A stretch of 64,000 nt of DNA, taken from assembly GCA_021292105.1 (NCBI GenBank), contig CM037871.1, forward strand, positions 40,727,337 to 40,791,336. The letters are read 5' to 3'. Position numbers and translations under genes: made by a program. The notes below the pieces were generated by a model, which saw only the letters and a program-made list of their open reading frames with translations, did no database searches and was not told where the DNA came from. This document shows positions 6,201-58,090 of this stretch, one piece after another. Numbering within the stretch: the stretch's first letter is position 1; the number at the start of each line of letters is the position of its first letter. The DNA comes from Anadara kagoshimensis. Taxonomy: Eukaryota > Mollusca > Bivalvia > Arcoida > Arcidae.

Positions 6201-7350
6201 TGAAAAATAGTAAGTACATTTGAAAACGTTAACTTTTGACTAAGGAAATGAGACCGCGTGCTCTGGAGCAGACTGGAACAAACAAATTTTGGAAGAATAA
6301 ATGAATACTTCTGAAAACAATTTTACAAGACAAACCCAACTGTTGCAACAAGCTACAGAACGGCGACATAGAAAACATTTAGATGATGAGATCTTAGTTT
6401 AAGAGTTAATTTTTTTTCAACTTACATAATGCAAGTATATCATTATATGCATGGTAACAGAAAATCACTTAATAACACAAAATAGCAATCGAACGAAATA
6501 AGGAAACCTTCTATTTAGGATCACATTGGATTAATTTACGACATGCAATTTACTGAGTGCTCAGAAAAATTGAGCAAAAACATGTGTAACGTTAAACAAT
6601 AAGTACTCGGTAATAGTCATGGTAACCACAAATACAAAACAACAAAATTAAAAAATAAATACATAACAAAAATTAAAAAATTTAAAAAATTAAAAAAATC
6701 TCTGTTAAATCATTCAATAATAAAATTTTATGTAATTTTTCAGTTCTGATAAACAATCAAGTATTTGTTATATATGGCATGGATAAGTATGTTTGTTTTT
6801 GATTATGTATGCTTCAGAAAGTAATGTCTACCTCGACCCAAAATGTTTTGATTGAAACGTGAGTGGAAATTCATCAAACTAAAGCACATTGGTTTCATAA
6901 CTACTAACTGATACTAATGGGGGGTTTATTAATACTTTTAATTTGAATTACTTGAACCACTGAGTTCACTGATTGAGCTTCGAACATTTTATCACTGATT
7001 AAACTAACATAAATTCGAGAGAAAAAACGATCCCTGAAATAGGATGTTTGGCCTGTACACTTTAAACCATATACCTGAAGAGTAGCCAATATCTACCTGA
7101 ACCAAAGATGTTGTTTTTATTGAAAGGGCCATATGTAAATAAAATATGTTTTACAACTATGCCATTTTTATGGAGATAGGTTTCATTCACACTAGTATTT
7201 GATTTTCACCTTTATCATACTAACCAAAGTTTGAACTTTCAATCACATTTAACGATTACACTAATAAACACGTACTTTCGAAAAATTGGTCCTTGTTATA
7301 GGTGAAAATGCGGTATTGTATGTATGCACTAGTGTAAACTTATTTAATTT
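3300..7350. other. No recognisable feature; AT-rich
   Basis: Four kilobases of AT-rich DNA with only short random open frames. A small direct repeat of a TGTGGGGTTATG motif lies at about 5995-6035. No exon with a matching splice context or recognisable protein family was seen on either strand. Confidence 0.55.
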
Positions 7351-9594: not shown

Positions 9595-9740
9595 AATTGT
9601 AAGGGATGCTTTCCCTTCTGGAGCACCCGGCCATACTTCCGTAGTGGAAGTTCTCGTGACTAACCTAACTTGTCAGTTTCAAAGTTTTTACTTTGCTTCT
9701 GGATTGTGATTCGGACATGGATTGGTATATTTTTTATTAT
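9595..9740 (+). mobile_element. Retroelement R, 5'-truncated 3' end
   Basis: About 140 bp of R in sense orientation inside a GPCR intron, opposite to the gene. Landmarks are 'ccttctggagcacccggcc', 'taacttgtcagtttcaaag', 'ggattgtgattcggacatgg' and 'attggtat' at the 3' end. No coding part remains. Confidence 0.8.
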
Positions 9741-10073
9741 ATCATTGGTCTGCTTTAGTAGACTAAACGCATTGTTATGTTTATGTATTTATGTACCAAA
9801 TATTATAAAATATATAGGTTTGTTTAACGGAGTCGGGATCCTCCCACAGTACTATAACCACGTTCATAATTTATGACCCGTCCAAAGTTTAATTATCAAT
9901 GGTTCTAATACTACATGTTTTATGTGTTAGTCTTTTGTTGTCTCTTTTGTTTGTTTCTTTGTGTCGTTTCATTGACTTTATCACAAATATTCATAAAAAG
10001 TATTTTGTATTTGTTGTTTGTAATATGTTTGCTAGTGGTGTGTATGTAAAATCTACTGTTCTATATTTCCCAC

Positions 10074-10569: not shown

Positions 10570-11063
10570 AGACATGCATATCATATGTCAACTTTCCTTT
10601 TCTATGTAGCAATATACGTGCTTCTCTTGCTTATGGTGTATTAGTTTCCCAAATAATATGCTATGATAAACTTTGTTCCCACTTAGGGGAATTTGTTCAA
10701 CGAAGCAAATAAATTGTTGACCCAGGGATATTGCAAGTCCAGGCTTATCATGGCCCTCAAAAAAATTTATGGCCGTCGTCACAGTATTATTGTTAGTTTG
10801 ATGTCTCTGTGTCCAGTATTGCACTGGATATATATATCTGACGTCTCATAGTTCCATGTTCCTTTCCCACAATTATTATTACACACGTGGCGCGTGTAGC
10901 TAGCTAAACAGGAGGTGCTTACCCTTCCAGAGCATCCGGCCTCACTTCCCTGGAGGAAGTTCACGTGTCTAACCTGACTTGTCAGTTCCAAAGTTTTTAC
11001 TTTGCTTCTGGATTGTGATTCGGACATGGATTAATATGTTTGTTTTTCACTAATCATTTAATT
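10570..11063 (+). mobile_element. Retroelement R, longer copy with decayed ORF end
   Basis: A sense copy in the largest GPCR intron. The left part, read on +, shows FPFLCSN-like then SLAYGVLVSQI and LGEFVQRSK, the decayed end of the ORF seen more clearly at 38718-39229. Frameshifts and stops follow. The 3' UTR has the shared 'taacctgacttgtcagttcc' block and ends at 'cggacatggattaatatgtt'. The copy is dead. It defines R as C-terminal coding plus about 250 bp of 3' UTR. Confidence 0.8.
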
Positions 11064-11727
11064 TAATGATTTTTATTATTTATAAAAAAAAACCCACAAT
11101 CCCGGAAATATCAAGACAATCTGTAGAAATAATACATACTAGATTGAAATGAAATTTCCTAGAGAAAGCTAATCAAAACCCAGAAGTAACTCTGGAGTAT
11201 TATCATATTAAGGTGATTCGATATGCTTCTGAATGAAACCTTCATTACCTCGAAAGAAATGTGACAAAAAATCGTCCGATTTTTAATAAACACAAGTTAT
11301 TAAATCTGTTTTTTCCTAGAGCAATGTCAAGGGAGGCTTATTTGTGTTCCTTTTCAAATATGAAAATGATTCCTTTCATTTTATGAAATATATGCCTCCT
11401 GGCACATATAAAGCGGTAGTATTAAACATTTCAAAACAATAAGGTTTACAGGTTATTGACTTGTGAACACTATGATATAATAAACTGGAGGCAAGACAAA
11501 AAAACTGTTTCAAACGATGGTATAATTGTGTATCAGGTATAAATGTAGGATTACTCGCCATTTTATAAAACAAAATCGATCATACAATGTCCTTTCTGGT
11601 ATTGAAACTTGACTTTTTGGCACTCAAGGTATAAACTTTGTGAAAGAAATCCGTAGTTTTGGAAACTCGACTTAAAATTGTTTTGTTTGTCTTTATCAAC
11701 CTTATGGTATATACTTTCAAACAAAAA

Positions 11728-12721: not shown

Positions 12722-13830
12722 ATTATTGCTAAGGCATTAGTACTGATTCGTCTAGTAGAATTGCTCTGCATAAACAAATAATTCTACCTCTCAAGATATG
12801 TTGATATTTATATTATATATTGTTTATAATTATTGTTAGGGCATTGTTACTGATTCACCTTATAAAATTGCTCTTTATAAACAAACATTGAAACCTTTAA
12901 GAGACGATGTATATGGAAAACAAGTGACAAGTGACAAGGCCTGTAGACCTATTGAAATGTTGACTTTTTTGTTTTTCTACGTCATTAGTTCTTAAGGGAG
13001 TATTTTGATGTACATGCGAATACAGATACTGTAGCCATATTGCAGAAAATTATACTTAAAAGTAACACCACCCGTCAATTTTATCAAGGACACATTACTT
13101 GATTGGCCTTGGACAATGTTTCTGTGGTAATCATGTAATTTACCTCTCAAGATATGTTGATATTTATATTATATATTGTTTATAATTATTGCTAATGCAT
13201 TGTTACTGATTCACCTAATAAAATTGCTCTTTATAAACAAACATTGAAACCTTTTAAGGTAGATTTGTATAAAAATAGTGACAAGTCCTGGAAACGTCGA
13301 ATTCTCGGTTTTTCTACTGAAGATCTGATAGGTCATTAGTTCATAACGAAGTTTTTACCGTACATGCGTATACAGATAATGCAACCATATTGCAGGAAAT
13401 GATACTTAAACACCAACCGTCAATTTTTCAAGGACACATTAATTGATTGACCTTGTTCAATGTTTCTGTGGTAATCATGTAATTCTACCTCTCAAGATAT
13501 GTTCATATTTATATTATATATTGTTTATAATTATTGCTAGGCATTGTTACTGATTCACCTAGTAAAATTGCTCTTTATAAACAAACATTGAAACCTTTTA
13601 GAGTCGATTTATATGGAAGACAAGTGTACAACATCCAATTGAAATGTTGACTTCTAAGTTTTTCTACTGCAGACTTGATAGGTCATTAGTTCATAACGGA
13701 GTATTTTATTGTACATGCGTATACAAATAATGCAGCCATATTGCAGGAAATGATACTTAAACACCAACCGTCAATTTTTCAAGGACACTCTACTTGATTG
13801 GCCTTGGACAACGTTTCTGTTTAGATAGGC
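12722..13830. repeat. Tandem ~350 bp repeat, three copies
   Basis: The blocks 'ctctcaagatatgttgatat', 'ttactgattcacctaataaa', 'gctctttataaacaaacatt' and 'caccaaccgtcaatttttca' recur in the same order. The 'gatatgtt' landmark falls at 12795, 13151 and 13496, periods of 356 and 345 bp. A partial unit precedes. The array sits in the GPCR intron between the TM6 and ICL3 exons. Confidence 0.88.
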
Positions 13831-15084: not shown

Positions 15085-15250
15085 AACACAAACATACAGG
15101 TCCATATTCAAATCACAACCCTAAAAGCAACTTTTAAAATTGGCAACTTAAATTTAACACGTGAAGTACTACCAGGGGTGTGAGACTAGGTGCTCCAGGG
15201 GATAGGTACCTCCTGTCTAGTACGCCACACCCATCATGTATGCAATCAAT
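15085..15250 (-). mobile_element. Retroelement R, truncated copy
   Basis: Antisense on +. It starts at the reverse complement of the fixed 3' end near 15088 and runs to a 5' truncation where the next R copy begins. More diverged than its neighbour. Confidence 0.75.
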
Positions 15251-15690
15251 CAAAAACAAACATACTAATCCAAATCCGAATCAAAATCCAAAAGCAAAAG
15301 TAAAAACTTTGGAACTAGAAAGTTAGGTTAGACACATGAACGTCCACCAGGGAAATGAGACTGGATGCTCGGGAAGGGTAAGCACCTCCTGTTTAGCTAG
15401 CTACACCTGCCGCGTGTGTAATCAAAATTGTGTGAAAGCAACATGGAACTATGGGACGTCAAATATATCCAGGGCAATCCTGGACACAGAAATCAAACTT
15501 ATCAACAATACTGTGATGACGGTCATAAAACTTTTTGAGGGCCTTGATAAGCCTAGACTTGCATTATCAACAATTTATTTGCAAGCAGCCTACTTCGTTG
15601 TACAAATCAACCTATTGACAAAAATACTGTACATGTGTTTCAGCTATAATTTGTTTTATTACCATACCATGATAAAGTAAAGGCAGAATT
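15251..15690 (-). mobile_element. Retroelement R, copy retaining part of ORF end
   Basis: It starts at AACAAACATACTAATCC and extends through the 3' UTR into the coding part near 15600. The plus-strand 114-codon open frame (from 15336) is the reverse complement of the element and is also open in other copies, so it is unlikely to be a gene by itself. Adjacent insertion of two R 3' ends suggests use of the same target region twice. Confidence 0.82.
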
Positions 15691-17165: not shown

Positions 17166-17210
17166 CAAAATTCAAAATGTATGGATATACTCCGTATTAA
17201 TAATACTTAC

Positions 17211-17415
17211 GTTTTGCCTGTCGTGCATTTTTGGAAATACTGTACAATATTAATGAATATGACGTTGTAATGATGACTAATGGTAAAGCATAAACGGTGA
17301 TAACGTTGAACAAATTGTATGCTAACTCATGTTTAGGCGTAGGAAAGAAATTAAAAGTCACACATTGTGTATACCAAGTATATTTTGGATGTCGTTCCAC
17401 ATGGAATATCACGCT
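17211..17415 (-). CDS. GPCR exon: TM4 end, ECL2, TM5, start of ICL3
   Basis: The acceptor is a good polypyrimidine tract ending in TTTCTTTTTCAG; the exon opens in phase 0 with SVIFHVERHP and closes in phase 1 at AAAAC|GTAAGT. The 68 codons include ECL2 with the conserved Cys (YTQCVTFNFF), then HELAYNLFNVITVYALPL, the start of TM5, and SILYSISKNARQAK-like basic residues entering ICL3 (actual reading LILYSISKNARQAK). The following intron base set completes the split codon as CAA (Gln). A 94-bp retroelement fragment sits about 48 bp upstream of the acceptor and in-frame open sequence runs into it, so a naive ORF is longer than the exon. Confidence 0.9.
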
Positions 17416-17462
17416 CTGAAAAAGAAACAAAAATTGAATTAGGCATTGCATGATATCAGTCA

Positions 17463-17556
17463 TAATCCTAGTTTCCCGATAGAAATTCACGTGTTTAACA
17501 TTACTTGTCAGTTTCAATGTTTTTACTTTGCTTTTGGATTGTGATTTGTACATGGA
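17463..17556 (+). mobile_element. Retroelement R fragment next to a GPCR splice acceptor
   Basis: Contains R landmarks 'attcacgtgtttaacattac', 'ttgtcagtttcaatgttttt' and 'ttggattgtgatttgtacat'. It ends 48 bp from the exon acceptor at 17415 and is antisense to the gene. Confidence 0.75.
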
Positions 17557-17617
17557 ATTATAATTTATTACAACTAGCAAAAAAGAACCTGACCATTTTT
17601 ATACTTTTCAATTATTA

Positions 17618-21550: not shown

Positions 21551-22543
21551 CAGTACAGAACCTGTCGAAAGTTTAACACTAAGCTAACGAATTAAGGCCG
21601 AGTAGGCAGCTGATCTCACTCTGTTTACCATACCTCTACAAGTTTTCGGCTGATCTCGCTGATCTCAGGACTCGACTTCTGTTTACCATACCTCTACAAG
21701 TTTTCGGCAGCTTATCTCGACTTCTGTTTACCATACCTCTACAAGTTTTCGGCAGCTGATCTCGACTTCTGTTTACCATACCTCTACAAGTTTTCGGCAG
21801 CTGATCTCGACTTCTGTTTACCATACCTCTACAAGTTTTCAGCAGCTGATCTCGACTTCTGTTTACCATACCTCTACAAGTTTTCAGCAGCAGATCTCGA
21901 CTTCTGTTTCACATACCTCTACAAGTTTTCAGCAGCAGATCTCGACTTCTGTTTACCATACCTCTACAAGTTTTCAGCAGCAGATCTCGACTTCTGTTCA
22001 CATACCTCTACAAGTTTTCAGCAGCAGATCTCGACTTCTGTTTACCATACCTCTACAAGTTTTCAGCAGCAGATCTCGACTTCTGTTTACCATACCTCTA
22101 CAAGTTTTCAGCAGCTGATCTCGACTTCTGTTTACCATACCTCTACAAGTTTTCGGCAGCTGATCTCGACTTCTGTTTACCATACCTCTACAAGTTTTCG
22201 ACAGCTGATCTCGACTTTTGTTTACCATACCTCTACAAGTTTTCGACAGCTGATCTCGACTTCTGTTTACCATACCTCTACAAGTTTTCGGCAGCTGATC
22301 TCGACTTCTGTTTACCATACCTCTACAAGTTTTCAGCAGCTGATCTCGACTTCTGTTTACCATACCTCTACAAGTTTTCGACAGCTGATCTCGACTTATG
22401 TTTACCATACTTCTACAAGTTTTCAGCAGCTGCTATCATCTTTCTTTCGAAGGTTTATTCTACCACTAGCTATGGCAACTCGGCAACCGAGCTTCGACTC
22501 TTTTCCGTTAGATCAGTGTTAAACTTTAGACAGGCCAGTACCG
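21551..22543. mobile_element. MITE family B expanded by an internal satellite
   Basis: Termini CAGTACAGAACCTGTCGAAA and the inverted GTTAAACTTTAGACAGGCC... ending CCG, with TA flanks (21549-21550, 22544-22545). Other B copies are about 210 bp; this one is 993 bp because the 45-bp array fills the interior. The seed of the array resembles the 'ctctttaccaata' and 'cgacagct' parts of the B interior at 30904-31020. Confidence 0.85.
21606..22430 (-). repeat. 45-bp tandem array, ~18 copies
   Basis: The unit includes 'ctgtttaccatacctctaca' and 'agttttcggcagctgatctc'. Because 45 is a multiple of three the minus strand reads as a 15-residue repeat (MVNRSRDQLPKTCRG), giving open frames 21636-21869 and 21998-22408 separated by two units with indels (near 21908 and 21998). 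The frame break, no Kozak or splice context and location inside a MITE argue that it is not coding. Confidence 0.95.
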
Positions 22544-22967
22544 TATATGCTTTAGATATATTCAGAACAAAGAAAGTACAACAGTATTGATTGAAAAAAA
22601 CAACAGCAACAAATAACAATAACACCAATAAACGTTGCACGATGCATGAGCATGCCCAGCGCAACACGTGCTATCTTGTTGTAACTACAGACCGCTGAAA
22701 TAGAATAGACACGAATACATTTAATGAATTAGGATCCCCCGCCAGCAGGTTTTTTTGTGATTTCCACTTATGGTCAAAACCCTTTTCGTCGAAAGACAGG
22801 TGATAATTTTATCTAGGGGTTTGATTTACTTAACATGTGTAAGCTTTTTTTTATATTGAAATAATTTAGTTTCTACCTCATAGCTGTGTCAAAATTGCAA
22901 AGAAAGAAGCCCGTTTGATGTTTCATACTGTGAATTCGTTTCCTTTTGCGGTGTCAATTTTTCGTTG

Positions 22968-23540
22968 TTCTGAGAAAACAATCGTTGCGTGGAATAGAAA
23001 ATCGTGGTTTGTGGTTACTGTTTAGAGTAGGTTCTGAGAAAAATATCATTGCGTGGAATAATAAATCGTGGTTTGTGGTTACTGTTTAGAGTAGGTTCTG
23101 AGAAAAATATCATTGCGTGGAATAGTAAATCGTGGTTTGTGGTTACTGTTTAGAGTAGGTTCTGAGAAAAATATTATTGCGTGGTATAGTAAATCGTGGT
23201 TTGTGGTAACTGTTTAGAGTAGGTTCTGAGAAAAATATCATTGCGTGGAATAGTAAATCGTGGTTTGTGGTTACTGTTTAGAGTAGGTTCTGAGAAAAAT
23301 ATTGCGTGGAATAGTAAATCGTGGTTTGTGGTTACTGTTTAGAGTAGGTTCTGAGAAAAATATCATTGCGTGGAATAGTAAATCGTGGTTTGTGGTTACT
23401 GTTTAGAGTAGGTTCTGAGAAAAATATCATTGCGTGGAATAGTAAATCGTGGTTCGTGGTTACTGTTTAGAGTAGGTTCTGAGAAAAATATCATTGCGTG
23501 GAATAGAAAATCGTGGTTTGTGGTTACTGTTTAGAGTAGG
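22968..23540. repeat. 64-bp tandem array, ~9 copies
   Basis: Unit landmarks are TTCTGAGAAAAATATCATTG, CGTGGAATAGTAAATCGTGG and TTACTGTTTAGAGTAGG. Copies are nearly identical; the first is diverged and one near 23297 lacks a few bases (ATCATTG reduced). No open frame is conserved. Confidence 0.95.
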
Positions 23541-23700
23541 TTTGTAATATATAATATGTCGTTGACATGTAAATTATTGGGTTATTTCCCATGAAAATAA
23601 CAAAAGTGAATCAACAAGTAAAAATTAATGACATCATTAATCAAAGAACTTTATTGTTTGCGTGGTTCGTGAACTTTAAAATTAGTCCAACAAACGCCTA

Positions 23701-24974: not shown

Positions 24975-25070
24975 CACCCGGCCTCACTTCCCTGGTGGAA
25001 GTTCGCGTGTTTAACCTAGCTAGTCAGTTTAAATTATTACTTAGCTTTGTGATTGTGATTTGGATATGGA
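24975..25070 (+). mobile_element. Retroelement R 3' UTR leading into minisatellite
   Basis: 'cccggcctcacttccctgg' and 'gtttaacctagctagtcag' match R's 3' UTR in sense. The R end then continues without a break into the 50-bp array. Confidence 0.8.
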
Positions 25071-26445
25071 TTGGGTATGTTCGTTTTCACCTTGCTTTAT
25101 CATTGTGATTTAGATATGGATCGGGTATGTTCGTTTTCACCTTGCTTTATCATTGTGATTTAGATATAGATCGGGTATGTTCGTTTTTACTTTGCTTTGT
25201 GATTGTGATTTGGATATTGATCGGGTATGTTCGTTTTTACTTTGCTTTGTGATTGTGATTTGGATATGGATCGGGTATGTTCGTTTTTGCTTTGCTTTGT
25301 GATTGTGATTTAGATATGGGTCGGGTACGTTCGTTTTTACTTTGCTTTGTGATTGTGATTTTGATATGAATCGGGTATGTTCGTTTTCACCTTTCTTTGT
25401 GGTTGTGATTTGGATATGGATCGGGTATGTTCGTTGTCACCTTGCTTTGTGATTGTGATTTGGATATGGATCGGGTATGTTCGTTTTTGCTTTGCTTTGT
25501 GATTGTGATTTAGATATGGGTCGGGTACGTTCGTTTTTACTTTGCTTTGTGATTGTGATTTTGATATGGATCGGGTATGTTTGTTTTTACTTTACTTTGT
25601 GATTGTGATTTGGATATGGATTGGGTATGTTCGTTTTTACTTTGCTTTGTGATTGTGATTTAGATATGGATCGGGTATGTTCGTTTTCACCCTGCTTTGT
25701 GATTGTGATTTGGATATGGATTGGGTATGTTCGTTTTCACCTTGCTTTGTGATTGTGATTTAGATATGGATCGGGTTTGTTCGTTTTTACTTTGCTTTGT
25801 GATTGTGATTTGGATATGAATCGGGTATGTTCGTTTTTACTTTGCTTTGTGATTGTGATTTGGATATAGATTGGATATGTTCGTTTTTACTTTGCTTTGT
25901 GATTGTGATTTGGATATGAATCGGGTATGTTCGTTTTTACTTTGCTTTGTAATTGTGATTTGGATATGGATCGGGTATGTTCGTTTTTGCTTTTTTGTGA
26001 TTGTGATTTAGATATGGGTCGGGTACGTTCGTTTTTACTTTGCTTTGTGATTGTGATATGGATATGGATCGGTATGTTCGTTTTTACTTTGCTTTGTCAT
26101 TGTGATTTAGATATGGATCGGGTTTGTTCGTTTTTACTTTGCTTTGTGATTGTGATTTGGATATGGATCGGGTTTGTTCGTTTTTACTTTGCTTTGTGAT
26201 TGTGATTTGGATATGGATCGGGTATGTTCGTTTTTTTACTTTGCTTTGTGATTGTGATTTGGATATGGATCGGGTATGTTCGTTTTTGCTTTGCTTTGTG
26301 ATTGTGATTTGGATATGGATCGAGTATGTTCGTTTTTGCTTTGCTTTGTGATTGTGATTTAGATATGGGTCGGGTACGTTCGTTTTCACCTTGCTTTGTT
26401 ATTACGATTTGGATATGGTTCGGGTATGTTCGTTTTTGATTGATA
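25030..26445 (+). repeat. 50-bp minisatellite derived from R's 3' end, ~28 copies
   Basis: The unit is TTTTTACTTTGCTTTGTGAT, TGTGATTTGGATATGGAT and CGGGTATGTTCG, about 50 bp. It aligns base by base with the last 50 bp of R ('ttactttgcttctggattgt', 'gattcggacatggattagta', 'tgtttg'). Point variants such as GGGTACG, TTCACCTTG and ATATAGATT recur in several non-adjacent units, indicating multi-unit duplication. Because 50 is not a multiple of three, all frames of a strand share the same ~50-residue periodic reading, producing spurious open frames at 25927-26389. Confidence 0.95.
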
Positions 26446-31544: not shown

Positions 31545-31740
31545 CTGGACATACTGTAGAAATCAATATCCACGGGCCATTTATTGATGTTGCATATTAT
31601 ACCAGTCTTAAGCTTACAACACTAGACGGCCGTTTCGGAATACATTTCCTCATCACTAATGCTTGGACCAAAATTGTGAAACCAAAATGTTTATCAAGAT
31701 GTTGAAAAGATGTACAGAAAAGAAAACATAATTCAATCAG
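31545..31740 (-). repeat. Hammerhead-bearing dispersed repeat H, minus-strand copy
   Basis: Read on the minus strand this matches 47880-48115: 'catcttttcaacatcttga', 'acaattttggtccaagca', the ribozyme region, then 'taagactggtataatatg'. Diverged by scattered substitutions. Confidence 0.8.
31618..31663 (-). ncRNA. Decayed hammerhead ribozyme (C3 mutated)
   Basis: The layout matches the intact motif at 48027: stem I AGCATTA/TAGTGTT (with G-U pairs), stem II GGAAATGTATTCC, GAAA, minimal stem III ACGGCCGT and the GTC cleavage triplet. The core reads GTGATGA instead of CTGATGA. From known hammerhead structure, losing C3 breaks the essential C3-G8 pair, so this copy should be inactive. Confidence 0.75.
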
Positions 31741-37302: not shown

Positions 37303-37735
37303 AAGTCATCAAAAACCAAACATACTAATCCATGTCCGAATCACAATCAAGAAGCAAAGTAAAAACTTTGGAACTGACAAGTTAGGTTAGACACGTGAAC
37401 TTCCACCAGGGAAGTGAGACTGAGTACTCCGGGAGGGTAAGCACCTCCTGTTTAGCTAGCTACGCCCGCCACATGTGTAATCAAAATTGTGTGAAAGGAA
37501 CATGGAACTATAGGGCGCCAAATATATCCAGGGCAGTCCTGGGCACAGATACATCAAACTTATCAACAATACTGTTATGACTGCCATAAAACTTTTTGAG
37601 GGCCTTGATAAGCCTAGGCTTGCAATATCCCTGGGTAATATTGTATTTGCAAGCAGCCTGCTTCGTTGTACAAAGTCTCTGTAGTGGGAACAAGCTCTAC
37701 CATAGCGTATTGATCGGAAATAAATACACAATAGA
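37303..37735 (-). mobile_element. Retroelement R, copy with ORF C-terminus
   Basis: Starts at AACCAAACATACTAATCC on + and ends near 37735. On the minus strand 37456-37731 reads IRYGRACSHYRDFVQRSRL near its N-end, then a frame with SRPSKSFMA. The 3' UTR is well preserved, so this is one of the younger copies. Plus-strand open frame 37395-37580 is antisense. Confidence 0.85.
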
Positions 37736-38190: not shown

Positions 38191-38717
38191 ACTGATTGTG
38201 ATAGTAAGTGTTATATTACCAAATAGTTACGGTTATTATATGCTTCAATGTATTGCTATATTTTTTTTTATCAAAAAACAGGCATTTTGGAAGGGAAAAC
38301 CATTAAATTGTACAAAGGCTTAAATTGTTCTGTATTGTGTGATAGTATGCAGTTTAATACTGAATGTTTTGTCCATTATAATAATCACTGTTGACATTCC
38401 ACAACACAATCAAAAGATAAGATGCCCGGTTCCTTCAATCTGCATGACATTCTTCATTCATCTTACACAATTAAAAAAACCTTAACCATAAAAATTTGTC
38501 TTTTAATTTATCTCTAATGTCTAAACTCTGAATCAAGCCAGTCTGATCGATGTAAAATAATCGGTTATCATTTCTTTGAGGGGTTAGATGGTAGACGAAT
38601 CCCGATTGTTTGACTTGACAGAGGATCTTTGAATGCCAGACGACAATAATATCTGATTGCCATTTGTGGCAGTCGATTTCCAAATATATGAAGAGTGAAT
38701 TGAAAATGACTTATAAT

Positions 38718-39229
38718 CAATAACAAACATACTAATCCATGTCCGAATCACAATCTAGAAGCAAAGTAAAAACTTTGGTACTGACAAGTTAGGTTAGACA
38801 CGTGAATTTCCACCAGGGAAGTGAGGCCGGGTGCTCCGGAAGGGTAAGCACCTCCTGTTTAGCTAGCTACACCCGCCACGTGTTAAATCAAAATTGTGTG
38901 AAAGGAACATGGAACTATGAGACGTCAAATATATCCAGGGCAATGCTGGACATAGAAACATCAAACTTATCAACAATAGTGTGATGACGGCCATAAAACT
39001 TTTTGAGGGCCTTGATAAGCCTAGGCTTGCAATATCCCTGAGTCAACAATTTATTTGCAAGTAGCCTACTTCGTTGTACAAAGTCCCCGTGGTGGGAACA
39101 AGCTCTACCATAGCGTATTAATTGGGAAGCAAATACACCATAAGCAGGAGAAGCAGGTATATTGCTACATAAAAAAGGAAAGTTGACAATAGAAAAAATG
39201 AAATCATCACGTTTGTCATAAAGTTTCAA
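38718..39229 (-). mobile_element. Retroelement R, best-preserved copy; ORF C-terminus
   Basis: The longest clean copy. The minus-strand frame 39229-38915 reads, in order, IVNFPFLCSNIPASPAYGVF, ASQLIRYGRACSHHGDFVQ, RSRLLANKLLTQGYCKPRL and IKALKKFYGRHHTIVDKF before a stop. I recall this SNIP/PAYGV/SQLIRYARAC/KFYGRH order from the C-terminal region of invertebrate reverse-transcriptase ORFs; the clade is not assigned. After the stop comes ~250 bp of 3' UTR to the fixed end at 38718. The 5' truncation, fixed 3' end and no terminal repeats fit target-primed non-LTR-type insertion. Confidence 0.85.
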
Positions 39230-46812: not shown

Positions 46813-47675
46813 GGAATCCACGAGGATGTCAATCGGTGATTTTAAGTTGTTTTATAGACTTTATAAGCTATAGGTCTGATCCATCAATCAGATTTTATAA
46901 GAACAATGACTTTTTTACATTCTTAAATAAGACATCTTAATACACAACATTAAAGATTGCAAAAAAATAAAAAAATAAAAAAGTAATCCAATATTTTTTC
47001 TATGTGAAGACCATTTTCAAAAAACAAAAACATATTAGTTTCTAGGTTACGTTGGCTGTTACAGAATATAATTCAGTTATAAATTTCTATTGTCTGTTAT
47101 ATAACAGTTTTATTGCTCTTAAGGATAAAGGATAAAGAAATAAATTAGATTGGTCAGTTTTGATTTCAGAATAATACAGAACATGATAAAAATGTAAATA
47201 TTAATGGCGAGTCTATCAATAAATTTGCGGCCTTGTTTATTGACCCCAACATGTTTATCCACATCAACAATTTAACTAATAGCCAATACTTTTTGCTTTG
47301 ACAAGTTACAAACCTTGTTTTATTATTTTGCAAAATCCTTTATAGTTTTCCAACAGTTTTACAAATATTTCTTCATAATTTGAACTTTTGTCGACCTTAA
47401 CTGCAGTATTTGCATTATAACTGATAACAGTAAAGTATAAAATATGGCAGTAAATATGACAAACTATTGACGTTGTTATCCATATACAACAAAATTTACT
47501 GTCTATCCATATACACCAAAATGTACAGTCAATTTGATGAATACGCCTATTAATTTACTATATTTTGTCACAAAATAGTGCCGATGTACCTAGTTGTTCC
47601 ACATACATATTTTATTTTGTTATTCTATTCATTGCTTTTTTATTTCCTATTTTCTTCTTTTAACACAACACATAT
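46813..47675. other. No recognisable feature
   Basis: AT-rich unique-looking sequence. Confidence 0.45.
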
Positions 47676-47679
47676 AATT

Positions 47680-47765
47680 TTAAATTTCTCAAAAACTAAG
47701 GTATACTCCCTCATGCAAAGTATTTCTAGTGCTGTAAAATTAAAACTGGTATAATATGTAATTTA
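47680..47765 (+). repeat. Repeat H, internally deleted at the ribozyme site
   Basis: It shares 'ctccctcatgcaaagtattt' with 47910 and 'agtgctgtaaaattaaaact' plus 'ggtataatatgtaa' with 48067, but lacks the ~140 bp between, including most of the hammerhead. The junction TTTC|TAGTGCTG coincides with the predicted cleavage point (2-nt microhomology TC). Confidence 0.75.
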
Positions 47766-47879
47766 AATCCCTGAGCCGATAACTCTGCTGATGTCTGGTG
47801 CCCCGAGGATATCACCAACTTAGTAGGCAATAATTTTGTATTATTGTCAGAAATATTCTATAATTGTCTAAATTTCCTG

Positions 47880-48115
47880 CAAGTTAAAAGTTTAAATTTC
47901 TCAAAATCTAAGGTATACTCCCTCATGCAAAGTATTTCCTTAGCTTAATTTGGTAAAATATATTTTGGTCCCTTGAGTAGCTTTTCAACATCTTCAAAAT
48001 AATTTTGTTTTCATAATTTTGGTCCAAGCACTACTGATGAGGAATTGTATTCTGAAACGGCCGTCTAGTGCTGTAAAATTAAAACTGGTATAATATGTAA
48101 TAATGACATTTATTT
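47880..48115 (+). repeat. Repeat H, full-looking copy with hammerhead
   Basis: About 235 bp: 'ctaaggtatactccctcatg', 'gcttttcaacatcttcaaaa', the ribozyme region, then 'taaaattaaaactggtataa'. Related copies: 47680-47765, 50150-50335 (+) and 31545-31740 (-). No ORF. Known hosts of such minimal-stem-III hammerheads are Penelope-like elements and retrozymes; which of these H belongs to is not shown here. Confidence 0.8.
48027..48072 (+). ncRNA. Hammerhead ribozyme, type I with minimal stem III
   Basis: All core parts are present in order. Stem I: AGCACTA (48027-48033) pairs perfectly with TAGTGCT (48066-48072). Core: CTGATGA (48034-48040). Stem II: GGAAT-TGT-ATTCT (48041-48053), four Watson-Crick pairs plus a G-U. 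GAAA at 48054-48057. Stem III is the minimal self-complementary ACGGCCGT (48057-48064). Cleavage site GTC, C at 48065. Such short stem III motifs are known to work best as dimers. Activity is inference; the fold is directly visible. Confidence 0.85.
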
Positions 48116-50780
48116 TTGAAAAATTTTAAGAATCTTTCAATAACAGCTGTATGTCTCTGGGCACTATTTACTTTATTATTGTAAGGTTTTTCTTTTGTGC
48201 ATGATTTCATTTTAAGCAGTGTATCTTGACGCCATTAATTTCATTATGCCCGAGCTCTATATGCACTTGGTGAGTCCTTAGGAGACAATACAAATCTCAC
48301 ATATCTGAACATTATAAATGTAATTAAAGACAATTTATGTTTTGAAAAATGTCTTTACGACACTTACTACTATAATATATATCTTTCATATAGCTTTAAG
48401 GTGACGTATAAATGTGATGATACTGGCACCAACCCACGTTTTTGCTTGAAAGAATCAACAATCATTTGCGTTTTATCTTCTGTTTATCTCAAAAAAAAAT
48501 ATGCATTTGTAAATCGCTATTTGCAATATGTCAATTGACATTTTGAGTAGTACTTTCCAGGTGTGTCATCTACTTTGTCAAGTTAAAAGTTTAAACTTTC
48601 TTCTGGATTGTGATTTGGACATGGATTAGTATGTTGTTTTCTTTTAATTTCACTATGTTTAATTTTTTCATTTGGACATGGATTAGTGTGTTTGCTTTTG
48701 ATTTCTTTATGTCAGATTTTTTCATTTCTTTTTCAGCCATTAATTTTCTTCAATACAGCAGGTGATGACATGTATTTGAAGATTATTTCAATAACAGTTG
48801 TGTTTCTCTGTGTTCTATGTATTTTATTTTGTCATGTTAGATCTTTTCGATATTTCATTGAAAGTCTCATTTCTTGACACCTTTAACATTCTTATGTCTG
48901 AAAGTGGCATGCCCTTGAAGAGTGCCAAGGAGTCTATATTTTGACGACAATAATACCATTATTCCAGAGTTTTTCATGTTACTTGGGGAATATTTAATTA
49001 ATAAAATTAATTACGCATATCTTGACGTCATTAAGAATGACGTCGTTCATTCAAGTACCAAAATCCACATACGATTTACCGGAACTCTTTTTTCGAAGAA
49101 AAAATTAGAATTTTGTAAATTGCTGTTTGTAATATGTAAATTGATATTTCGTGGAGTACTTTCTAGGTGTGTTACCTTCTTCGTCAGTTTAAAAGTATTA
49201 ATTTTTCTTCTGGATTGTGATTTTGACATGGATTAGTATGTTTGTTTTTGATTTTATTAAGTTATATTTTTCATTTCGTTTTTAGTTGTTAATTTCTTTC
49301 AGTACAGCAGGTAATGACATATATTCGAAGATTCTCTCAGTTATAGCTGTGTGTCTCTGGGCACTATGTACTTTATTATGTTAGGTTAGATCTTTGAGTC
49401 ATAATTTCATTTAAAGTCTCATTTCGTGACGTTATAAAAATTCGTATGTTAATTAAAAATGGCATGTACTTAAAGAGTGCCAAGGAGACAATATCTTGAC
49501 GACAATAATAGTATATTCCAGAGCTTTTCATTTCCCTTGAAGAATATAAAACAAAATTAATTACACATATCTTGATGTCACAAATGTAATTTGAGACAAT
49601 TTATTTTTTGAAAAATATCTTTACGGTAATTTCATTGTATTTTAAATCTTTCAGTGCTTTAAGCGGAAGCTTGACTGTGATGATTCTGGCTATTTACACC
49701 ATTCTTCTCAATAAAAATCAATATTACCCGTGTGTAATCTTCCGCAAATGTAACTTACGAAATATACACAAAGTGCCATAAATCACAAATTAGCGAAATT
49801 GCAGTTATAAAACCGGTTTTGTGGATTCTTTTCGTGGATAGCAAATCGTAATGTTTGTAAGGGTAATGTTTGTTACTTGAACATTTTACACTAGAAAAAT
49901 ATTTTGTTAATGACTAAGTCATGGATTTGTATGTTTGTTTTTGAATTAAATATTATATTACTGCAGAACTAAAACACTGAATCATAAAATACAATTTACA
50001 CTATCAAAGAGAGAAATGAGAAAATAATGCAATAATAATAAATCGACCATAGCTGCTTATTGATATGTGGCTTGGTTTGGATTCTTCTTTTACATAAGGT
50101 AAATCACAAGTAATGTTATAACCGTTATAACCTTACTTGTGTTTACTGATTTTTTTTTTTCAATTTACTCCCCCATGCAAAGTATTTCTTTAGCTATATT
50201 TGGTTTAATATCTTTTGGTCCTCGGATACTTTTTCGATCCCTTGAAGAAAGTTTAGTTTCACAGTTTTTGTTGAATTGTATTCTTAAACAACCGTCTAGA
50301 GCCGTAAAATAAACACTAGTATGATATGTATGATTTGTTTCACATTTGTTTCGCTATTCCAGCTTTTAGAGTACTATTTTATTGTATTTTCTATTTCCTT
50401 TTTAGTCATTATTTTCCTTTTTATACAGCAGGTAACGACAGGACGTATGTTTGGATATTCTTTGAATTACAGCTTCGTGTCTCTGGGTAATATGTACGTT
50501 TTTGTGTAAGGTAATGTTTCATTTAAAGTCATATATTCCAAGGAGACAACATCTTGACGCCATTAACATCTTTATTATATAGCTCTTCATCCATTTAGAG
50601 ATTCCCTAGGAGGCAATAAAATTAAACACACATATCTTAACGTCACTAATGTAATTAGAGACAATTTATTTTTTGAGAAATATCTTTACGACACTTATTT
50701 TGGTATCATATATATTTCACCGATTAAAGTTAAAGCTTGACTGTGGTGAGGTTGGGGTTTATCCATATTTGGTGTATTCT
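48116..50780. repeat. Degenerate large tandem repeat, about four units
   Basis: Blocks 'tttcaataacagctgtatgt', 'ctctgggcactat' recur at about 48135, 48785, 49338 and 50465, each preceded in the later three by a 'acagcaggt(a/g)atgaca' block (48757, 49302, 50427). 'atatctttacgacacttat' follows at 48350, 49614 and 50680. Minimal R tails (tggattgtgat...ggacatggattagta) are embedded at 48605-48640, 48672-48700, 49205-49250. Open frames in this stretch are not conserved among units. Confidence 0.75.
50150..50335 (+). repeat. Repeat H, decayed copy
   Basis: 'ctcccccatgcaaagtattt', 'cttttggtcctcggatac' and 'ttgaattgtattcttaaaca', 'accgtctagagccgtaaaat' align with 47905-48080. The CTGATGA core and stem I 5' strand are gone and GAAA is altered, so the ribozyme is dead. 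Confidence 0.7.
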
Positions 50781-51118
50781 AAAAATTTAAGAATCAATAT
50801 TTACCAGCATTTTCATATATTTAGGCAAGTACCTTAATCCACATACGGATAAATCAATCATGAGATGGCGAAATTTCAAAGCATCTACTTATAAACAATA
50901 TGTTACTTTTTCCGCAAAATAAAATATCGTAATTTGTGAATGGGTTGTAAGATGGATAAATACTTGGATATGAATTATTTTGTTTTTTTCTGATTATAAT
51001 TGTCTTATAAGTCACATGCAATGACTTCAAAATAAAATACTGAATCATAAAATAGACTTAATATAATTGAACAGGAAATGAAATGGTGTACATTGTGCCT
51101 TACTGTTATTTAGTACAA

Positions 51119-51990
51119 GCTTTGATTTTGTTTCTGATATATAACGAAAATCACAAGTAATGCTTTACTTATTCCATTGATATTTTGAATATTACAAACG
51201 TGTTGACAATGGAAAAATCCTTAAAACTTTAAAATAATGAAAAAATTGTACAAAATTTTAATTCGTCGTTCTCCGGACGAAAGAATTCATAATATAACGA
51301 GTTCAATTAGGAAAATTCGTTAAATCACGAAGCGCTTTATAGATGATTTGCCCCAACCTGCTTTAAGAGTTCATACCTTGATGAACGATTAAAAAAAAAC
51401 ACCAATTCTTATATATATAATCACACAAGTGTTTTTTGCAAATATGATTATTAAAAAATACCAGATTGAACAGAAAACCTCGAATCAAAAATACAAATTG
51501 GAAATTTTTGTACATAATTCCGTTTCATACACCATGGCGGAACTATTTACACTTAGATTTTGTTACTGATATATAACGGAAATCACAAGTAATGCTTTAC
51601 TTATTCCATTGATATTTTGAATATTACAAACGTGTTGACAATGGAAAATCCTTAAAACTTTAAAATATTAAAAATAATTGTACAAAATTTTAATTCGTCG
51701 TTCTCCGGACGAAAGAATTCATAATATAACGAGTTCAATTAGGAAAATTCGTTAAATCACGAAGCGCTTTATAGATGATTTGCTCCAACCTGCTTTAAGA
51801 GTTCATACCTTGATGAACGATTAAAAAAGAAACACCAATCCTTATATATATAATTACACAAGTGTTTTTTGCGAAAGATGATTATTAAAAAATACCAGAT
51901 TGAACAGAAAACCTCGAATTAGAAATACAAATTGGAAATTTTTGTACATAATTCCGTTTCATACACCATGGCGGAACTATTTACACTTCA
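51119..51990. repeat. 433-bp tandem duplication, two near-identical copies
   Basis: The landmark CTGATATATAACG falls at 51134 and 51567. Following blocks ('gtaatgctttacttattcca', 'tttaattcgtcgttctccgg', 'cgttaaatcacgaagcgctt', 'cataattccgtttcatacac', 'catggcggaactatttacac') match with only scattered substitutions and one-base indels. Recent duplication; non-coding. Confidence 0.95.
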
Positions 51991-52745: not shown

Positions 52746-53430
52746 ATGGAAATTATAATTCATTATCTTTAGTATTTCTGGTTTCATCAAATATTACTAA
52801 ATGCCATTACATACATGGCCCATAGATAATGTACGTCTTAAAATACAGACTACCTCTTTCACTAAATAAAAAGCTGTATGTAGACTACAGTTTCCGTGAA
52901 TATGGATTACATTATACAACGATTAATTATAACAAATCAGCAAATATCCCGTGGCATTATGACACTAAAATAACTTGCATTTTAATAGGTCATCTTTATG
53001 AAAACAAGAAAATAGAAGATTATTTATTTTGATATTATTATATTAGCACATGCTATAATATTGAGCAAGGATATTAATTCAGATTTAAGTTTGCTGTAAA
53101 ATGCACAATAAAATGCCTAACCGTGATATAAAATACCAGATATTAACAAATTATTACTAAACTAGTTTAAATTTGCAGCACTAAAATAAATTTCACCATC
53201 AGAAAGCCAAGAACAAAGATTGTGGAAATACTAATATTTCAAAGATGTTTAAATAATAAAAAAAACATAGAACAAAAATGTATTTTAGGAAATGAAAAAA
53301 GAAACTAAGCACTGGACAAAAAATGAAAAAATTCTTAATGTGATGATATCATATATAAGACTGAATTGGTCCAATATGTTTGCAAATGTAATCTGTAGAG
53401 CTTTTAGTAAACAATTTATATTTTTAGTCG
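52746..53430. other. No recognisable feature
   Basis: AT-rich; nothing supported. Confidence 0.45.
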
Positions 53431-56962: not shown

Positions 56963-57908
56963 AATACAGAATGTATGTTGTAGACAGTTCAGTGATTTAG
57001 TCCCATATTCCTGTTATTCTCAATACAGAATGTAAGTTGTAGACAGTTCAGTGATTTAGTCCCATGTTCCTGTTATCCTCAATACAGAATGTATGTTGTA
57101 GACAGTTCAGTGATTTAGTCCCATGTTCCTGTTATCCTCAATACAGAATGTATGTTGTAGACAGTTCAGTGATTTAGTCCCATGTTCCTGTTATCCTCAA
57201 TACAGAAAGTATGTTGTAGACAGTTCAGTGATTTAGTCCCATGTTCCTGTTATCCTAAATACAGAATGTATGTTGTAGACAGTTCAGTGATTTAGTCCCA
57301 TGTTCCTGTTATCCTCAATACAGAATGTATGTTGTAGACAGTTCAGTGATTTAGTCCCATGTTCCTGTTATCCTCAATACAGAATGTATGTTGTAGACAG
57401 TTCAGTGATTTAGTCCCATGTTCCTGTTATCCTCAATACAGAATGTATGTTGTAGACAGTTCAGTGATTTAGTCCCATGTTCCTGTTATCCTCAATACAG
57501 AATGTATGTTGTAGACAGTTCAGTGATTTAGTCCCATGTTCCTGTTATCCTCCATTCAGAATGTATGTTGTAGACAGTTCAGTGATTTAGTCCCATGTTC
57601 CTGTTATCCTCAATACAGAATGTATGTTGTAGACAGTTCAGTGATTTAGTCCCATGTTCCTGTTATCCTAAATACAGAATGTATGTTGTAGACAGTTCAG
57701 TGATTTAGTCCCATGTTCCTGTTATCCTTAATACAGAATGTATGTTGTAGACAGTTCAGTGATTTAGTCCCATGTTCCTGTTACCCTCAATACAGAATGT
57801 ATGTTGTAGACAGTTCAGTGATTTAGTCCCATGTTCCTGTTATCCTTAATACAGAATGTATGTTGTAGACAGTTCAGTGATTTAATCCCATGTTCCTGTT
57901 ATCCTCAA
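56963..57908. repeat. 59-bp satellite array, 16 copies
   Basis: Unit: AATACAGAATGTATGTTGTA, GACAGTTCAGTGATTTAGTC, CCATGTTCCTGTTATCCTC. 946 bp / 59 is 16 units. Very homogeneous, with a few variants (TAAATAC, TTAATAC, CCATTCAG, TACCCTC) at the unit boundary. It ends directly against an R fragment at 57909. Confidence 0.97.
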
Positions 57909-58090
57909 TTTTGATTTCACACATGGTGAGTGTAACTAGTTAGATAAAAAAGGCTTTCATTTCCGAAGTATCCGGCCTTACTCTCTTGGTTGAAGTGCCC
58001 GTGTTTAACCTAGATAAGTCAGTTTTCTATTTTTCTTTGGGATGGGATTTATTTGAGCAGATACGTGTGTTTGCCAAAATGAACCTGTAA
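57909..58090 (+). mobile_element. Retroelement R, diverged 3' fragment
   Basis: 'ttgatttcacacatggtgag', 'tttccgaagtatccggcctt', 'gaagtgcccgtgtttaacct' and 'tgtgtttgccaaaatg' align to R's 3' UTR in sense with many substitutions. Confidence 0.65.

Follow-up and report, generated by a model that had tools for sequence, protein, structure and literature searches.

An apparently intact hammerhead ribozyme in a dispersed repeat of Anadara kagoshimensis, probably a decayed metazoan retrozyme

A genuine type I hammerhead ribozyme with a complete core lies at positions 48027-48072 (forward strand) of a 64,000-nucleotide (nt) stretch of the genome of the bivalve Anadara kagoshimensis (assembly GCA_021292105.1, contig CM037871.1, positions 40,727,337 to 40,791,336 of the forward strand; this whole stretch is hereafter called the window). 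The ribozyme stands close to the 3' end of a repeat of about 217 bp, here called H, of which self-comparison and a model search found five copies (A to E) in the window. H is probably an old family of metazoan retrozymes of the kind without long terminal repeats (non-LTR retrozymes), with copies A and B forming a partial tandem dimer made by a Penelope-like reverse transcriptase, or one of the long interspersed nuclear element (LINE) sort, that started inside the RNA. By itself the locus is a single decayed example of an already described class of elements.

The hammerhead of copy B consists of stem I (48027-48033 with 48066-48072), the CTGATGA core (48034-48040), stem II (48041-48053) and the GAAA core (48054-48057), the rest being stem III and the GTC triplet, up to 48065. 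Direct reading and a descriptor scan agree on seven Watson-Crick pairs in stem I (AGCACTA/TAGTGCT), and there are five pairs in stem II (GGAAT-TGT-ATTCT; one a G-U at the stem base) and two in stem III (A-U and C-G), the latter around a GGCC loop. All elements of the type I definition (CUGANGA...GAAA...NUH, three helices, helix I open) are present, and self-cleavage would be expected between C48065 and T48066, judging from the position of the GTC in the Rfam alignment. A preliminary description of this DNA had the coordinates, the stems, the CTGATGA and GAAA cores and the GTC triplet right by both reading and descriptor scan. Its term "dispersed repeat" is borne out by the five copies, and its term "intact" holds for copy B and not for the other copies of H in the window.

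A loose descriptor (stem I of at least 4 pairs, stem II of at least 3, stem III of at least 1) matched the copy B site and no other on either strand of the window, against a mean of 0.09 matches per random window (n = 100). A strict one (CTGATGA, stem II of at least 4 pairs, stem III of at least 1, stem I of at least 6), its thresholds picked with the copy B site already known, matched once on the two strands of the window and in none of 1000 first-order Markov windows. The Rfam model RF00163 (Hammerhead_1) aligned to the site over all 45 of its positions, with 24.6 bits (E 1.8e-4, 86 nt searched). Matches of SNORD82, snoR160, snoR77Y and snoR38 at the same place (13-16.4 bits) were rejected: they are far under the thresholds of these families and depend on letters that belong to the hammerhead core, UGAUGA and CUGA.

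Copy B (47885-48101, forward strand) is the sole copy with an intact hammerhead. Copy A (47673-47762, forward strand) has no ribozyme, and 87 of its 90 bases are the same as in B. Copy C (31590-31733, reverse strand) has a hammerhead at 31663-31618 with stem I kept (two G-U pairs), stem III unaltered and C3 changed to G at 31656. According to PMC11167929, which cites earlier work and adds a test of its own, this change abolishes hammerhead cleavage, so that copy C is expected to be dead. Copy D (50166-50330, forward strand) has lost one strand of stem I, the 5' one, together with most of CTGATGA. Copy E (53148-53296, reverse strand) is heavily decayed (62-64% to B), with poor pairing in stem I and a 13-nt gap in its alignment that takes away GAAA, the greater share of stem III and some of stem II. 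The five copies score 122.1, 110.2, 88.2, 71.5 and 35.3 bits with a model of H (R1) built on B, C, D and E, whose own scores are partly a matter of construction; the sole independent score is that of copy A (35.3 bits, E 2.9e-5). A sixth match (7262-7326, 19.4 bits, E 0.18) was rejected on reading, having no core. Viral contigs searched with five patterns for relatives of H gave no match, as expected for an animal repeat, and a literature search with the exact core string returned nothing related (unrelated mosquito work only). An ATG inside the hammerhead core opens a frame of 18 codons (48037-48090) in copies B and C.

Copies A and B are arranged as a partial tandem. They agree at 51/54 bases in the 5' part of A and at 36/36 in its 3' part, a likeness (87/90) closer than that of B to C, D or E, and their 3' parts are spaced 339 bp apart. 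This spacing suggests a retrozyme unit of 339 bp on the forward strand, with putative boundaries at the cleavage-site position of A and the cleavage site of B (47727-48065), the body of which would include the 122-bp spacer that self-comparison places between the two copies (47763-47884, forward strand). About 20 bp past copy B starts an array of at least four diverged tandem units, here called K (48123-51167, forward strand; starts at 48123, 48774, 49323 and 50450; 61-74% alike), and both B and D sit inserted within it. The left flank of copy A (47609-47656, forward strand) matches the part of K directly upstream in other units (77% over 48 bp with 49251-49298, E 9.8e-6), as though it were part of an older K unit broken by the insertion. 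When the two flanks are joined, they align along three uninterrupted K units, with gaps at the join. Since A, spacer and B interrupt a unit that is continuous in those three, they appear to have been inserted together, as a single piece of about 430 bp.

The copies of H share a common 3' end and differ in where they start. From +1 to +34 past the cleavage site all copy pairs (10/10) are alike (64-100%), whereas from +37 to +70 and from +71 to +104 their likeness does not exceed the highest value among 100 shuffles. Local alignment puts the last base shared past the cut at +36 for B with A, +35 for C, +34 for D and about +36 for E, so that the 36-nt 3' piece of copy B (48066-48101, forward strand) ends at the common 3' end. 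Four of these ends are independent (B, C, D and E), because A, under the tandem reading, runs on into the unit. The 5' starts of similarity, in coordinates of B, are scattered at 47885 (A), 47916 (D), 47945 (E) and 47956 (C). Copies B, C and D are contiguous across the cleavage site (E is gapped just upstream of it), and the RNA that was copied would therefore have been uncut or rejoined, with copying apparently begun about 35 nt beyond the cut.

LINEs and short interspersed nuclear elements (SINEs) also ordinarily share their 3' end and are truncated to varying extents on the 5' side. H might accordingly be a SINE-like or LINE-tail repeat with a 3' hammerhead, copied from linear RNA with neither a circle nor a unit length, in which case A and B would be separate insertions or the product of a DNA duplication; a spacer with no second copy in the window suits this explanation too. 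We nevertheless consider it decidedly unlikely, as B resembles A far more closely than it resembles C, D or E, and as the comparison of K units assigns both copies and their spacer to the same insertion interval.

A retrozyme origin accounts for the same ends in another way. The ends fit target-primed reverse transcription with a start inside the RNA. Cervera and de la Pena proposed that the circular RNAs of retrozymes serve Penelope-like or LINE elements as templates for tandem cDNA (PMC7229834), and the H locus fits their scheme with a 339-nt circle, a start near +35 and somewhat more than one turn of copying. A host ligase would close H RNAs into circles, presumably of 339 nt. An autonomous element, most likely of the Penelope type, would supply the reverse transcriptase, which would start some 35 nt past the cleavage site and proceed toward the 5' side, at times across the joined cleavage site and around the circle. 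The A-B locus would then stem from a complete turn and a partial second one, and copying of this sort would leave partial tandems that share a 3' end and begin at variable 5' positions.

Several features of H are those of metazoan retrozymes, which the same source describes as low in GC and as carrying type I motifs in short units, 150-450 bp long and repeated in tandem (PMC7229834). GC content is 0.29 in the two 2-kb bins around the H locus (29-37% across the 2-kb bins of the window), the repeat is non-coding, and its stem III is of the sort described there for invertebrate hammerheads, namely two pairs and a tetraloop. As for the tandem arrangement (units of 150-450 bp, at least dimeric), the 339-bp spacing is seen and copy A is without a hammerhead. 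The preliminary description had suggested looking for tandem dimers; the window shows a partial tandem. A close likeness is to the retrozymes of the mussel Mytilus galloprovincialis, which share with H a type I hammerhead whose stem III is short and whose stem I lacks an inner bulge for the usual loop contacts, low GC, a non-coding dispersed repeat and decayed variants. The mussel repeats, of about 350-390 bp against 339 bp for H, carry hammerheads that are reported to be without most of the usual loop-contact nucleotides (PMC7229834). Unlike them, H comes only as a broken partial dimer, and the likeness is one of description. The same holds for Sm-alpha of Schistosoma and satellite 2 of newts, which are also described as type I hammerheads in repetitive DNA, the newt repeats being of about 330 bp (PMC7229834).

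The preliminary description had left it undecided whether H belongs with Penelope-like elements or with retrozymes, and stem III favours the second, as the published Penelope hammerheads are usually without helix III (PMC6155905, PMC7761336). The likenesses to Penelope-like elements (PMC11167929, PMC3846280) are: 1) partial tandems; 2) variable 5' ends; 3) a 3' end set inside the RNA; 4) a hammerhead toward the 3' part of the repeat. A Penelope-type enzyme from anole starts copying inside the RNA; its insertions in the genome have their ends at the start sites and are arranged as tandems or partial tandems (PMC11167929). Rotifer Penelope elements show 5' truncation, partial tandems and captured spacers (PMC3846280). 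The copies of H could thus be solo pseudo-LTRs of an autonomous Penelope-like element, with A and B flanking a captured stretch of 122 bp. Besides the fact that Penelope elements carry hammerheads (PMC11167929), this would suit the length of H (about 217 bp) and the closeness of its hammerhead to the 3' end. Two further agreements may be coincidence: the ATG in the core lies 29 nt before the cut, where the anole element has 26, and the distance between this ATG and the common 3' end, 65 nt, is near the 22 codons reported for the rotifer pseudo-LTR with its tail (PMC3846280). The nearness of this ATG to the place where the anole Penelope open reading frame (ORF) starts is probably coincidental and possibly a Penelope relic.

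We consider this origin unlikely. Stem III is present in H, the frame opened by the core ATG runs for 18 codons in B and C and stops short of the common 3' end, with no long open frame, and among 57 scanned ORFs of the window there was neither an endonuclease nor a reverse transcriptase domain, nor any other Penelope protein. The stem and the early closing of the frame argue against an autonomous Penelope element; a distant Penelope ancestry of H is possible. The likeness in length between the published Penelope tail of 30-40 bp and the 34-36 nt of H is not evidence, because that tail spans two start sites of the reverse transcriptase and is not measured from the cut; H shows a single such end, as opposed to the two start sites that bound the tail.

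A number of observations weigh against a retrozyme origin of H. The window contains no full-length dimer with two hammerheads, copy A being without one, and self-comparison shows no convincing second copy of the 122-bp spacer elsewhere in the window, so that the unit is seen at a single place. The best other match of the spacer (62975-62929; 47 bp, 74%, E 1.2e-4) was read, and no adjoining H sequence was seen. No reverse transcriptase domain was found in the 57 of 67 listed ORFs (at least 75 amino acids) that were scanned, the other 10 being minisatellite frames and one frame running off the end, and a distant receptor was the only Pfam match of any kind among the 57. The anole enzyme starts about 85-92 nt past its cut (at 111-118 of its ORF, with the cut at 26; PMC11167929), as against about 35 nt here. 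The left K flank is T-rich and its match score modest. Retrozyme insertions, when flanked by target-site duplications, have ones longer than 4 bp; the best candidates here are of 9-15 bp (10/12 matches for A-B, 9/10 for D), and in all four insertions (4/4) they are not above those of shuffled flanks (fractions 0.28, 0.35, 0.60 and 0.83).

The comparison of copies and the predicted folds are also unfavourable. The helices of the hammerhead are paired in 84.1% of 44 cells over B, C, D and E, compared with 32.6-45.7% in six slid controls, the structure having been drawn from copy B, which favours it. Compensatory changes, which the preliminary description had asked to be looked for among the copies, occur in 0/14 pairs across the same four copies, a number too small for many to be expected, and the covariation score was reached by 325/500 shuffles. 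With no pair changed on both sides and with so many shuffles reaching the score, selection on the hammerhead structure is not demonstrated across copies. The hammerhead fold (-5.2 kcal/mol over 46 nt, -6.3 over 66 nt) lies 5.5 kcal/mol above the predicted minimum-energy fold at both lengths (-10.7 and -11.8 kcal/mol), because the CUG of the core can pair with the CGG of stem III, a pairing also predicted in the 339-nt circle. The self-pairing of this circle is no stronger than that of shuffles (z +0.63, taken on a decayed copy with a putative unit boundary), unlike that of published retrozyme circles, among which some mussel circles are described as exceptions whose ribozyme is not free to fold (PMC7229834). 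Finally, the 24.6 bits of copy B are below the curated gathering score of RF00163 (34 bits). A search of the whole window at Rfam gathering scores gave no match, and one of the 1301 bases around the site (E up to 10) gave no hammerhead match. A covariance-model search, likewise proposed in the preliminary description, thus finds the motif and leaves it under the curated score; this is a miss of the cut-off for automatic annotation, not of any core feature.

The absence of compensatory changes, of any folding-energy excess of the motif over shuffles and of a score above the Rfam threshold is what would be seen if the motif were a chance assembly, or a fossil without recent function, in an ordinary dispersed repeat. 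This seems very improbable, as not one of the 1000 random windows matches the strict descriptor and as C, D and E retain recognisable parts of the same motif. The view in the preliminary description that H is, or derives from, a self-cleaving retroelement fits the data and is partly supported by them, through the copies with their common 3' end, variable 5' ends and partial tandem, with the compensatory changes lacking.

Copy B could still be able to cleave, though as a monomer it would probably do so slowly. Most invertebrate hammerheads are reported to act as monomers (PMC7229834, PMC7761336), those of mussel cleaving slowly at about 0.1 per min (PMC7229834). The palindromic GGCC loop of stem III would permit the pairing of two copies (predicted duplex through ACGGCCGU, -15.5 kcal/mol), and since two copies could pair in this way a dimer might cleave better than a monomer. 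Action as a dimer, another suggestion of the preliminary description, is thereby given a predicted pairing, set against the monomers reported for most invertebrate motifs and the lack of the motif in copy A.

The break in copy A deserves separate attention. Its 5' and 3' parts meet at ...GTATTTC|TAGTGCTG..., whereas in copy B the same two parts are separated by 127 bp that include the ribozyme. In A, the junction thus coincides with the cleavage-site position, with an ambiguity (or microhomology) of 2 nt. Such a coincidence would occur in about 2% of random deletions by a rough count (3 placements of about 160 right-hand breakpoints), and it was noticed post hoc, in one copy. Reverse transcriptases of the Penelope and LINE sort are capable of template jumping. 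Three origins of the junction are not separated by these data: a deletion at the microhomology, reverse transcription off the 5'-OH end made by the ribozyme followed by a jump, and ligation of that 5'-OH end to a broken RNA.

It is conceivable, if doubtful, that the copies of H record how retrozymes enter genomes, through the fixed 3' ends of B to E and the break of A at the cut. Ends 34-36 nt past the cut would be expected if a Penelope-type enzyme starts at a fixed point in circular RNA, and a break exactly at the cut would be expected from run-off at the 5'-OH end with a jump, or from ligation; the first point comes from four copies and the second from one. Were this so, the ends of B to E would be genomic evidence for the proposed and unproven partnership of Penelope elements and retrozymes, and the junction of copy A would be a genomic trace of self-cleavage in vivo. 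The mobilisation of retrozymes in metazoans is an open question, for which Penelope-like elements have only been proposed (PMC7229834). We found no published 3'-end signature for retrozymes in the literature, supplements and most subscription papers being outside the scope of the search. A fixed 3' end at a set distance from the cut is a simple signature, open to counting across large numbers of copies in an animal genome, and junctions falling on the cut would show the ribozyme acting in vivo.

Other repeats are frequent in the window. Three tandem copies of a 351-bp unit (12779-13820; 83% alike) have a retrozyme-like length, and the descriptor scan found no hammerhead in them. Three minisatellites are highly homogeneous: 21671-22432 (45 bp x 17, 96%), 22967-23542 (64 bp x 9, 95%) and 56963-57909 (59 bp x 16, 97%); the first of these is open in several frames on both strands. 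The distant receptor match mentioned above belongs to an exon-like ORF (17197-17598, reverse strand), which matches 7tm_1 (PF00001, rhodopsin-family receptor) weakly (E 8.5e-5, under the Pfam curated score) and which by eye we take to resemble a peptide-hormone receptor. A further, dispersed repeat family contains TTTGGACATGGATTAG. It is found at 48558-48711, with relatives for example at 2552-2615, 9656-9741, 10962-11081, 15241-15354, 17488-17569, 37308-37413 and 38673-38820, and forms an array of 28 copies of a 50-bp unit at 25037-26437; it may be a non-autonomous element whose internal satellite can expand. Twenty nucleotides of this family (CAAGTTAAAAGTTTAAA...) occur again at 47880-47899, where they overlap the beginning of copy B.
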